From Crocinitomix sp. (GTDB lineage Bacteria > Bacteroidota > Bacteroidia > Flavobacteriales_D > Crocinitomicaceae), in assembly GCA_013138735.1 (NCBI GenBank), contig WTCE01000078.1, positions 1-33,860 of the forward strand: a DNA stretch of 33,860 bases, given 5' to 3'. Shown here in pieces: positions 2,138 through 25,384 of this stretch (positions within the stretch are counted from its first letter, which is position 1; each line of letters begins with the position of its first letter). Below the pieces are notes generated by a model. The model saw nothing but the letters and a program-made list of their open reading frames with translations, was not told the DNA's origin and did no database searches. The position numbers and the translations under genes were made by a program.

Positions 2138-3241
2138 CTATTTTATGACCGTCTCTCCATTTACAAAAGTTGCAAATCGACCCAATTTTTTGTCGTGAAC
2201 TGGCTCATTGCTATCATATGGCCATCCACCAAAATGTGTTTTTCTATATTCTTGCATGATCTCATTTATTCCTTCTTTTGAATTGGCAACAAAAGGGCCG
2301 TGTTGCACCAAAGGTTCATTCATTGGTTTTCCTTGTAAAAAAAGTAAATAAGATGTTTTTGACGAATTCTGAATTTGGATGTCTTCCTTTGAGTTTAGTT
2401 GAACTAACTTTTTTTGAGTAACTTCTGTACTATTAATAGCTATACTATCTCCTTCATAATAAAAGAGTGTTCGTGTAATATCTTCATCTATTCCTGAAAT
2501 AGAGAATTTTGCATTAGGGTTTAGTTTTATAGTCCAAATTTGGAGTTTGTTTTCCGGATCGGAGGCCCAAGAATCTGGATTTGGATTGAGTGCTACTTTT
2601 TCGTTTAAAGTACCGGCTATCAAATCAACTTCCGTTAGGTTGCCGTTTTCATCTTTTGATTTGATTTTTGGAATATCCTCATTCCACATCATTTTGTAAT
2701 ATGGGTCTACCTTTTTATTTTTTTTAGGTAAATTTAACCAGAGTTGAAAAATTTCAAAAGGGTTTTTATCTTCATTTAGTAAAGGAAACATTTCAGCGTG
2801 TTGCACACCTTTTCCTGATGTAAGCCATTGTACATCACCGTTTCCAAATCGTCCTTTTCCGCCAAGAGAGTCAGTATGATCGACCATTCCTTTAGTAACA
2901 ATACTTATCGTTTCAAATCCAGAATGAGGATGACCAGGGAATCCTGGCACATTTGTTCCGTGATACATATTCCAACCATCTTTAGAGGCAAAATCTTGTC
3001 CTATAGCTCGTCCATCTAATGAGGCGTTTGGCCCCAAGTTTTCATTGCCTCCAGGATACTCATCATAATGATAAGAGCAAAAAATAAATGGATCTTGCGT
3101 TTCCCAAGGAAGAGTTAATGGTTTTATGTTTTTTATTGCTGTTTTAGTCATTTTTTTAGTTTGTGTGAACCCTATTTTTGATAGGATAAGAATACCTATT
3201 GTGGTCAATGAAATTTTTTTTATAAAATTACCTCTATTCAT
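2138..3241 (-). CDS. Secreted pirin-family protein (double cupin)
   Basis: Pirins are metal-binding double-cupin proteins, some with quercetin 2,3-dioxygenase activity; here the substrate is unknown. The four metal ligands of the N-terminal cupin are all present: H-P-H in the string HPHSGFET, and HAE in GVQHAEMF 42 residues later (H, H, H, E, same spacing as human pirin). The ATG at 3241 gives 367 residues beginning MNRGNFIKKISLTTIG, with a hydrophobic segment to about residue 23 that looks like an export signal. A TTG at 3298 would add 19 residues and is less likely. Export is unusual, as most pirins are cytosolic. It is the last gene of the Crp/Fnr-ribA-pirin group, with its own dyad promoter upstream. 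Confidence 0.88.
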   Translation of the reverse strand: MNRGNFIKKISLTTIGILILSKIGFTQTKKMTKTAIKNIKPLTLPWETQDPFIFCSYHYDEYPGGNENLGPNASLDGRAIGQDFASKDGWNMYHGTNVPGFPGHPHSGFETISIVTKGMVDHTDSLGGKGRFGNGDVQWLTSGKGVQHAEMFPLLNEDKNPFEIFQLWLNLPKKNKKVDPYYKMMWNEDIPKIKSKDENGNLTEVDLIAGTLNEKVALNPNPDSWASDPENKLQIWTIKLNPNAKFSISGIDEDITRTLFYYEGDSIAINSTEVTQKKLVQLNSKEDIQIQNSSKTSYLLFLQGKPMNEPLVQHGPFVANSKEGINEIMQEYRKTHFGGWPYDSNEPVHDKKLGRFATFVNGETVIK

Positions 3242-3323: not shown

Positions 3324-3367
3324 CAAATTTCGTGACTTAATTATCTCCGTGCATTCATCTAGATTAA
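3324..3367 (-). promoter_or_regulatory. Pirin promoter with Crp-type dyad
   Basis: A near-palindrome ttcatctagattaa (3354-3367) lies upstream of pirin. The 15 bases tgcattcatctagat (3350-3364) are identical to those upstream of ribA (4020-4034). On the minus strand the -7-like box GAAATTTG (complement of 3324-3331) ends 36.5 bp from the dyad centre, exactly as at ribA. The predicted start is near 3319, which places the dyad at about -41.5. No -33 TTG is apparent, as expected for an activator-dependent promoter. Confidence 0.6.
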
Positions 3368-3385
3368 TAAAACAAAAAAATATAT

Positions 3386-3970
3386 TTATAGCAGATGATT
3401 AAGTTCGTTTTTTTTAACGTTTAAATAATCTAGGTTGTACTCGTTGGTTGCTATAATCAAAGGTATTCTTCGTGCAACTTTAATTCCTGAGTTTTCCCAT
3501 ACTTTTATTTTTTCCGGATTATTAGAGAGTAATGCTATTGACTTTATTTTCATATGCTCAAGTGCCTGAACAGCAATTGTAAAATCTCTTAAATCAGTAT
3601 CAAAACCCAAAGAATGATTTGCTTGTATCGTATCTTGGCCTAGATCCTGCAAGGCATAAGCATTGATTTTATTAAAAAGCCCAATGCCTCTACCTTCTTG
3701 TCTTAAATAAACGATAATACCTGTCTTTTTTTTTGCGATTTCACGCATGCTTTCATCAAGTTGTTGACCACAGTCACACTTTTTAGAACTGAAAACATCA
3801 CCCGTCAAACATTCTGAATGAATCCTTGTTAAGACATCTTCCTGATCCGTTAAATCACCTATATACAGAAGACAATGTTCATGTATGTCACCTTCTTCCT
3901 TGAAAGAAATAATATTAAAAGCACCATATTTGGTAGGCAGTTTCGCTTTATTTGAAAATGTTATTTTCAT
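3386..3970 (-). CDS. ribA: GTP cyclohydrolase II
   Basis: It opens GTP to 2,5-diamino-6-ribosylamino-4-pyrimidinone 5'-phosphate, formate and pyrophosphate, the first step of riboflavin synthesis, in the cytosol. Starting from the ATG at 3970 (MKITFSNKAKLP) it is 194 residues, matching single-domain RibA. The zinc site C-X10-C-X-C is present in the string RIHSECLTGDVF...KKCDCG, followed by YLRQEGRGIGL and DLRDFTIAV, which hold GTP-binding and catalytic residues. It is not fused to DHBP synthase (RibB), and no other rib gene is nearby, so this copy is outside a riboflavin operon. Its neighbours are a Crp/Fnr regulator upstream and pirin downstream, each of ribA and pirin having the same dyad. 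It may supply extra flavin under the regulator's inducing condition. Confidence 0.92.
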   Translation of the reverse strand: MKITFSNKAKLPTKYGAFNIISFKEEGDIHEHCLLYIGDLTDQEDVLTRIHSECLTGDVFSSKKCDCGQQLDESMREIAKKKTGIIVYLRQEGRGIGLFNKINAYALQDLGQDTIQANHSLGFDTDLRDFTIAVQALEHMKIKSIALLSNNPEKIKVWENSGIKVARRIPLIIATNEYNLDYLNVKKNELNHLL

Positions 3971-3993
3971 TGTTTTTCGATTGTAAACATGTA

Positions 3994-4037
3994 CAAAAGT
4001 CAATATTTAAAACTTGTGATGCATTCATCTAGATGAA
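3994..4037 (-). promoter_or_regulatory. ribA promoter with perfect 14-bp dyad
   Basis: The perfect palindrome ttcatctagatgaa (4024-4037) is centred at 4030.5. The minus-strand -7-like box GACTTTTG (complement of 3994-4001) ends 36.5 bp downstream of that centre. A start near 3989 would leave a leader of about 19 nt before the ATG at 3970. Sequence and spacing match the pirin promoter. Confidence 0.65.
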
Positions 4038-4050
4038 GAAATGAAAAAAA

Positions 4051-4590
4051 TTAATGTGAACGTGCAATTTTGCCTCTTATGGTACTAAGCGCTTGAGGTG
4101 TAATCCCTAAATATGTCGCAATCATGCGTTGAGGAACGCGGTTAGGTAAGTCTGGGTAAGTATTTAAAAAGTAATTATAACGGTCTATTGCCGGTGACCC
4201 CATTAGCATAAGGACTCTACGTTGTAATTTACCTAACCGTCTGTATAAAAGCTGCGTGTTTTCTACAATTTTTTCTTTTGGCAAATCAGCATTGAATAGA
4301 TAATCTTTATTAAAGATAATTATCTCTGAGTCCTCTAAACAATCAATAAATAGTTTCACAGGTTCATTAAACTCTAAAGCTTCTAAATCAGCAATTATCC
4401 AACCTGTCGGAGCAAACATAAAAATATGCTCTTTTCCTTTACTATCTATAATGTAGCTTCTTAAAAGTCCTTTTTTAACGTAAAAAGTTGAAGCTTGAAA
4501 ATCTCCATCTCGCTGAAGAAAATCTCCTTTTTGGAACTGTTTTCTTTTAGCATTGGGATCAAGGTTTAGTATTTCCGTTAAATTTTCCAT
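4051..4590 (-). CDS. Crp/Fnr family transcriptional regulator
   Basis: This is a cyclic-nucleotide-binding-fold regulator of 179 residues, shorter than E. coli Crp. Residues 15-110 form the jelly-roll sensor (KGDFLQRDGD, STFYVKKGLLRSYIID) and residues 110-125 the dimerisation helix. The C-terminal winged helix has the recognition part RMIATYLGITPQALSTIR. The sensor has no Fnr-type cysteine cluster and lacks a full cAMP-binding RxSE-like cassette, as is common in Bacteroidota members, so the signal is unknown. Directly downstream on the same strand are ribA and pirin, each with a Crp-sized dyad at about -41.5, which makes them the likely targets. It may also be a candidate for the TGTAAC dyads at 11.7 and 12.6 kb, though one protein is unlikely to read both motifs. 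Confidence 0.88.
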   Translation of the reverse strand: MENLTEILNLDPNAKRKQFQKGDFLQRDGDFQASTFYVKKGLLRSYIIDSKGKEHIFMFAPTGWIIADLEALEFNEPVKLFIDCLEDSEIIIFNKDYLFNADLPKEKIVENTQLLYRRLGKLQRRVLMLMGSPAIDRYNYFLNTYPDLPNRVPQRMIATYLGITPQALSTIRGKIARSH

Positions 4591-25295: not shown

Positions 25296-25384
25296 CGCGG
25301 ACAGTGAGAGATTCGAACTCTCGGTACCTTGCGGTACGCTAGTTTTCAAGACTAGTGCATTCGACCACTCTGCCAACTATCCGC
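25296..25384 (-). tRNA. tRNA-Ser(UGA)
   Basis: An 89-nt type II tRNA including the discriminator G (25296). The acceptor stem GCGGATA pairs with TGTCCGC (one G-T pair). The D arm, anticodon stem CTAGT/ACTAG with loop cttgaaa, anticodon TGA (complement of 25346-25348), long variable arm and T arm GAGAGTTCGAATCTCTC are all seen. No CCA is encoded. It reads UCA and, by wobble, other UCN serine codons. Confidence 0.95.

Follow-up and report, generated by a model that had tools for sequence, protein, structure and literature searches.

The regulator that serves here as the main point of comparison is FNR of E. coli, in which the Crp/Fnr fold is combined with a four-cysteine [4Fe-4S] site, and whose operator, TTGAT-N4-ATCAA, is a 14-bp dyad of 5-4-5 geometry with its third base read by Glu, Ser and Arg residues of the recognition helix. 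For both FNR and CRP, the classical class II position of the operator centre is -41.5, and those CRPs that respond to cAMP have a cAMP-contact signature, GE..L....RS or GE..L....RT. FNR promoters carry TATAAT, whereas the -7 box of Bacteroidota reads TAnnTTTG or GAnnTTTG.

Matches to the cyclic-nucleotide-binding model PF00027, which also hits non-regulator proteins, occur in 113 of 118 Bacteroidota genomes and reach 25 in a single genome. One Crp-like protein of the phylum, BT1413 of Bacteroides thetaiotaomicron, is reportedly predicted to control an operon of which BT1414 is a member (PMC10434189) and, to judge by its number, adjoins the operon predicted to be under its control. Our search of the literature found no worked-out operator for the subfamily considered here and no description of the layout reported below, part of that search probably missing papers that print the slashed form 'Crp/Fnr'. 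The locus that we compare with these systems lies in a window (the whole stretch of DNA analysed, 33,860 nucleotides) from a Crocinitomix sp., contig WTCE01000078.1, in which an earlier note had pointed to a Crp/Fnr-type gene followed by two similar promoters.

Results

The locus and its regulator

Read along the minus strand, the locus runs in the order regulator, dyad 1, -7 box, ribA, dyad 2, -7 box and pirin-family gene. The regulator is a Crp/Fnr-type protein of 179 aa (4051..4590, minus strand; PF00027 E 9.9e-9), ribA encodes a GTP cyclohydrolase II of 194 aa (3386..3970, minus strand; PF00925 E 5e-60, with TIGR00505 above its cut-off), and the pirin-family gene (2138..3241, minus strand; PF02678 and PF05726) encodes 367 aa from the ATG at 3241. 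Since a second GTP_cyclohydro2 match is present elsewhere in the genome, on contig C57, the ribA of the window is an extra copy, as the earlier note had supposed. The pirin may be exported, the sole basis for this being an N-terminus that looks signal-like by eye.

Like FNR, the regulator has the Crp/Fnr fold. A cyclic-nucleotide-binding-type N-terminus is indicated by the PF00027 barrel (35.5 bits against a cut-off of 27.5), and a C-terminal winged helix-turn-helix by alignment through residue 174 to 3dn7, the best solved relative ('cyclic nucleotide binding regulatory protein'; phmmer E 3.8e-17, residues 16-174 aligned, helix-turn-helix included); none of the Pfam helix-turn-helix models reached 1e-3 on the protein. 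The recognition helix reads TPQALST (Q166, S169, T170), as against TPEYLSE in 3dn7, and Q166, S169 and T170 presumably correspond to E209, S212 and R213 of FNR. That the protein is FNR proper can be rejected, and that it is CRP proper seems improbable: the four cysteines are absent, a single one (C84, which 23 of the 63 aligned members share) being found instead, and the NCBIfam Fnr model gives 26.7 bits, far below its cut-off of 228. The cAMP-contact signature was not seen by eye in the regulator sequence. No substitution is seen at D49, G52, E54, F59 or W64 among the 63 aligned members, while H55 and D68 each occur in 62 of them.

Two dyads at one spacing

Dyad 1, a putative operator, is a perfect palindrome (TTCATCTAGATGAA; 4024..4037, minus strand) 13 nt past the regulator stop codon, and dyad 2, likewise a putative operator (TTCATCTAGATTAA, or TTAATCTAGATGAA on the minus strand; 3354..3367, minus strand), has one mismatch. 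On the plus strand both read TGCATTCATCTAGAT, with 15 bases shared, and the two sites, TTCAT-N4-ATGAA and TTAAT-N4-ATGAA, have the geometry of the FNR operator with a different base 3. Each dyad is followed by a -7 box, GACTTTTG for ribA (3994..4001, minus strand; last G at 3994, predicted start 3989) and GAAATTTG for the pirin gene (3324..3331, minus strand; last G at 3324, predicted start 3319), and in both promoters the last G of the GAnnTTTG box lies 36.5 bp from the dyad centre. Neither promoter has a TTG between dyad and box, the one TTG at hand overlapping the first base of the ribA box. About where the missing -33 element would be, dyad 1 is flanked on its promoter side by TGCAT (4019..4023, minus strand), and the promoter-side flank of dyad 2, read from the sequence, is TGCAC (3349..3353, minus strand). 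Positions, shared bases, spacing and the lack of a -33 TTG are all as the earlier note had described them.

In F. psychrophilum, mapped transcription starts put the sigma-A box, TAnnTTTG, between -12 and -5 (PMC9723704). With the last G of the box at -5, as in that species, and a further 36.5 bp to the dyad, the dyad centres would fall at -41.5, which corresponds to the position of a class II activator site. The geometry proposed in the note is thereby recovered, and the starts that it predicted at 3989 and 3319 agree with the same placement of the box.

TTCATCTAGATKAA is found nowhere else in the genome (6,839,587 bases searched), and the degenerate form TTMATSTASATKAA has four occurrences there: two in the window, one on contig C171 and one on contig C188. 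The last of these (C188:52485) was dropped, as it is without a box at the right position. The C171 site lies directly behind a paralogue 57% identical to the window regulator, has the box GACCTTTG at 36.5 and is followed by a DoxX-like frame. Over 100 dinucleotide shuffles of the window, sites with at most two mismatches averaged 0.32, and six of the 100 reached two; repetition of the motif is by itself only mildly unusual, rare rather than extreme. It is the spacing, together with conservation in relatives, that settles the dyads as real.

Conservation behind Crp/Fnr genes

The relatives of the regulator that were compared came from two sources: 59 genomes, the own genome among them, and a species-level genome collection that contributed the best 80 of 117 loci. 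These 80, with 45-88% identity to the window regulator, were located with peptide patterns taken from the window protein, which is a source of bias. There were 110 loci with a usable regulator end, and 108 distinct ones once L098 and L100 had been dropped as duplicates; L068, whose regulator end is unusable, was left out, and repeat views of the own genome (L001, L002, L114-L118) were omitted. L100, a Crocinitomix algicola record, is repeated by L011 of the same genus (G002), the stretch behind the gene being identical. A dyad was counted if it had at most one mismatch to TTNATCTANATNAA and lay no more than 130 nt behind the regulator stop codon.

So defined, a dyad stands behind the regulator stop codon at 69 of the 108 loci, and at 58 of these 69 a TTTG ends exactly at +36.5, as against 0-4 at any other spacing from +7 to +80 (the 69 and the 58 both take in the window and its C171 paralogue). 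The spacing has been kept and the spacer sequence has not, since at all but two of the 17 positions from +12.5 to +28.5 the information content is below 0.4 bits. In the consensus, ATTTC-TTAATCTAGATTAA-TGCAT-N17-gAnnTTTG, TGCA adjoins the dyad only where it faces the promoter (its T is present in 65 and its G in 63 of the 69) and the T-rich ATTTC lies on the opposite side. Most of the loci lack a -33 TTG, and a TTG that ends anywhere from +8.5 to +17.5 is seen at 15 of the 69.

By the pattern and place used, 39 of the 108 loci are without a dyad. Among these, a dyad does occur in L083, L093 and L094, where it overlaps the regulator stop codon and its box is at 36.5; L043 and L045, which are close relatives (63-64% identity), have none in place, the nearest such dyads lying 943 and 444 nt further. 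When 364 looser dyads at the same loci were considered, with the counted sites excluded, 22 had a TTTG at 36.5 versus 0-9 elsewhere. None of 68 loci has such a dyad in the 300 nt that lead up to the matched regulator start, so the sites are not there for autoregulation, a reading that we reject.

The earlier note had staked its proposal on the persistence of the dyad in relatives that keep all three genes. Only two of the fetched relatives do so, L034 and L063, and both keep the sites. L034, which has the gene order of the window, retains both dyads with boxes at 36.5, its second site preceding a Fer4_19-like frame that is located ahead of the pirin gene (it starts MSKEYSNGEI and resembles Fer4_19 genes at other loci). 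In L063, where the order is Crp-pirin-ribA, the pirin/ribA pair is preceded by a single dyad, which has two mismatches and whose box is at 36.5.

For each site, the target was taken to be the first downstream frame of 60 aa or more, which gave 83 frames in 30 clusters; one representative per cluster was scanned, 5 of the 30 being without a Pfam match. The clusters comprise YceI (11 frames), DoxX and DoxX_2 (7, 6, 3 and 3), an unnamed small family (7), Fer4_19 (6, with pirin behind in some loci), FMN reductase (6), GTP cyclohydrolase II (5), pirin (4), DinB_2 (3), CDGSH (2), strictosidine-synthase-like (2) and polyketide-cyclase-like (2) proteins, and 16 single genes. As far as family names allow a judgement, the targets are often of a redox or detoxification type, a description that covers 53 of the 83 frames when YceI and DoxX are included.

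Co-variation of recognition helix and operator

The earlier note had linked the dyads to the regulator by the adjacency of its gene. This link gains from the observation that base 3 of the dyad tracks the recognition helix of the adjacent Crp/Fnr protein, at helix positions that are presumably those used by FNR. In the 69-locus set, the helix could be read at 66 loci. Where Glu is paired with Lys, Ala, Ser or Thr, base 3 is A in both halves (38 of 39); where it is paired with Arg, base 3 is G in both (3 of 3); and for Gln without Arg it is C in the promoter-proximal half at 22 of 24 loci and in the distal half at 10 of 24. A wider set of 137 loci was also assembled, of which the 87 with a dyad and a box at 36.5 were used and the other 50 were not. 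Here the proximal base 3 is G for Glu with Arg (17/17), A for Glu with Lys (30/31) and for Glu with Thr, Ser or Ala (7/7), and C for Gln without Arg (21/22), while the four cases of Gln with Arg have TTACC (three) or TTCAC (one), the four of Ile or Val with Arg have TTAAC, and the single cases of Glu with Phe and Glu with Glu have TTAAG. The rule is weaker in the distal half than in the promoter-proximal half: at these same loci, a distal G accompanies Glu with Arg in 12 of 17 cases, and a distal C accompanies Gln without Arg in 10 of 22. At L012, L014 and L105, EALSR or ETLSR helices occur with TTGAT...ATCAA or TTGAC...ATCAA sites.

On a quick tree made with the helix masked, 15 of whose 84 inner branches are strongly supported, changes number 8 for Gln and 8 for C, and 7 for Arg and 6 for G. 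Independent pairs, counted on the best tree by a custom script in which the Gln contrast omits the Arg rows (62 rows used), stand at 6 to 0 for Gln/C in 195 of 200 random pairings, and in the remaining five a pair is undecided and the count is 5 to 0; for Arg/G they stand at 6 to 0 with one undecided in all 200. If only strongly supported branches are used, 3 pairs are left for Gln/C and 2 for Arg/G, none of them against and too few for significance, and the support that the tree lends to the co-variation is modest. Taken as a whole, the co-variation ties the dyad to the neighbouring regulator more directly than adjacency alone.

Searches independent of the window or of the dyad sequence

A 52-base promoter model, R1, was built on sequence only from 67 loci, with the window and its paralogue excluded. 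In the own genome it places the dyad 1 site first (E 1.4e-8), the dyad 2 site second (E 2.3e-8) and the C171 site third (E 1.5e-7), and nothing beyond these three is better than 0.004 among the 150 of 5661 first-look candidates that were scored. The fourth match, L122 (C54:39016-39064; E 0.004), lies before a MATE-type-looking efflux gene; a Crp/Fnr gene is absent from its 3-kb locus, and the site is kept only as a lead. There are 19 weaker matches, at E 0.15 and above, and the seven examined look chance-like. Two weaker matches, on C68 (E 7.1) and C76 (E 9.0), are directly behind Crp/Fnr paralogues and are probably not due to chance.

Over 296 genomes of the phylum, 45 (the own genome included) have R1 matches at E <=0.01, with 19 first-look candidates scored per genome, so that further sites may exist. 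Of the 29 sites fetched from other genomes, none is a near-copy of an R1 training row, and in 14 cases the site directly follows a Crp/Fnr gene. The remaining 15 precede genes whose translations, judged by eye, resemble pirins (8), YceI (4), ring-cleavage dioxygenases (2) and a transporter (1). The spacing is 36.5 at 17 of the 29 and 37.5 at nine, with the exact TTTG absent at three, and because R1 rewards the 36.5 spacing these counts are not independent. The nine sites at 37.5 are L138, L141, L144-L147, L154, L155 and L158; at eight of them AAGTGC replaces AATGC right after the dyad, and these eight stand before pirin-like genes.

In a blind offset test, Crp/Fnr-type genes were taken by Pfam model and palindromes were scored at each offset from A..TTTG boxes. 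The helix was matched at 48 of 76 loci (7/16, 25/30 and 16/30), and the unit of the test is boxes, not loci. At an offset of 36.5, 17 of 30 boxes have at least four of five pairs, nine of them perfect, as against 0-4 at the 31 other offsets, none of which has more than one perfect palindrome; the test takes in the window regulator once and also some loci shared with the 108 (for example L183 = L017 and L190 = L027). Among the 16 phylum-wide top regulators with the helix read, mostly long 'RETISR' CRPs, such a palindrome was absent, and the layout therefore belongs to the short subfamilies. In seven paralogues (L165, L187, L194, L195, L196, L198 and L202) the end of the box is 40 bases past the regulator stop codon, which must therefore lie inside an operator half-site, TTGAT or TTAAC. 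By the spacing counts, the own-genome ranking under R1 and the blind offset test together, chance can be rejected as the source of the dyads.

Discussion

We consider it highly probable that the regulator encoded at 4051-4590 binds the two dyads and, presumably in answer to some signal, activates ribA and the pirin gene from class II promoters, the whole acting as a built-in promoter cassette. A dimer of the regulator would bind both 14-bp dyads through the half-site TTMAT, with the 5-4-5 arrangement of the FNR box and a changed base 3, and the two recognition-helix residues that correspond to Q166 and T170 of the window protein would set the promoter-proximal base 3. With the operator at -41.5, a -33 element that cannot be used and a GAnnTTTG -7 box, ribA and pirin would then be activated, the TGCA flank lying in the place of the -33 TTG, for which it may substitute, and ATTTC on the far side offering a possible upstream contact, and the operator that adjoins the regulator stop codon would be part of the regulator's own cassette. 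The subfamily of the window regulator would differ from FNR in having C or A as base 3 and in acting locally, on the next gene. As judged from sequence, this mechanism is well supported by conservation and co-variation. The 15 R1 sites that have no regulator directly in front count against it, as do the loci with no dyad in place, the R1 sites spaced at 37.5 or lacking an exact TTTG, the weaker distal half, the small number of pairs on strongly supported branches and the absence of the palindrome from the long CRPs.

Activation is the likely output because the dyad sits at -41.5 and the -33 TTG is mostly missing. One could instead suppose that the adjacent protein represses, for instance as a ligand-released block to RNA polymerase, with the dyads still serving as operators; the dyad and its flank do extend to the place of the -33 element, where a bound protein could stand in the way. 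The combination of -41.5 with a missing -33 TTG is, however, the look of an activator-dependent promoter, and a repressor site needs no single fixed spacing, yet one spacing has been kept at most of the loci with a dyad, so that on this geometry repression seems unlikely. Another reading is that a different Crp/Fnr paralogue, such as a global regulator, binds the dyads and the neighbouring gene is incidental. The genome would offer candidates, with 16 PF00027 matches of which 15 are above the cut-off, and about half of the sites found by DNA search alone are unlinked to a regulator. Against this, the base-3 rule connects each operator to its own neighbour's helix, and paralogues of the same genome have other dyads behind their own genes, for example TTGATTCAAATCAA for PETFSR and TTAAGATAGCTTAA for PEFLSF, which makes a distant binder very improbable. 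We give hardly any credence to the idea that the dyad acts in RNA, forming a hairpin or terminator where the regulator transcript has its 3' end, rather than as a DNA operator. The frequent position of the dyad just behind the stop codon would suit such a structure, but the spacing to the promoter box is fixed, copies of the element also precede pirin-, YceI- and dioxygenase-like genes at places with no regulator gene directly ahead, and the second site in the window is placed after ribA and not after the regulator. Rfam has no match at the dyads; its sole match in the window is a tRNA gene (25298-25382, minus strand).

If activation by the adjacent regulator is accepted, the earlier note's idea of a small local regulon holds in so far as it ties the promoters to the adjacent Crp/Fnr gene, and it understated the scope, as the layout is found at many Bacteroidota loci. 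Read in this way, the finding is larger than had been stated: it would be a recurrent unit of regulator, operator and promoter with a readable specificity rule. Many short Crp/Fnr genes of Bacteroidota would be followed by a built-in class II promoter that drives whatever gene comes next, often YceI, DoxX, pirin, FMN reductase, Fer4_19/CDGSH or ribA. It is tempting to go further, and on balance we lean slightly towards the view that these are portable cassettes of a short regulator with its own promoter, the operator anchored at the end of the regulator gene, the pair moving and evolving together and capturing the next gene, and a two-residue helix code making the operators predictable. Under that code the proximal half-site would have G for Glu with Arg, A for Glu without Arg, C for Gln without Arg and TTAAC for Ile or Val with Arg, and in some paralogues the anchoring would be so tight that the stop codon falls within the half-site (TTGAT, TTAAC). 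If the layout holds, operator, promoter and first target could be read from roughly 100 bases behind a regulator gene, and the choice of DNA by Crp/Fnr recognition helices could be tested on the natural co-variation as it stands. The odd pairing of an extra riboflavin gene with a pirin would also be explained, as both would be outputs of one local switch.

The nearest relatives found for the window regulator are in Flavobacteriaceae records (L033, 88% identity; L034, 83%), whereas among other genomes of its own genus the best match reaches 61% (L004); horizontal transfer of the cassette is possible. The C171 paralogue (L113, C171:10600-16200, at about 2000-2925 of that locus; 57% identical) has an in-frame TAG before its recognition helix, with operator and box present, and is either a recent pseudogene or the result of a sequence error. 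The DoxX-like frame behind it is 103 aa long, as against 124-125 aa in relatives.
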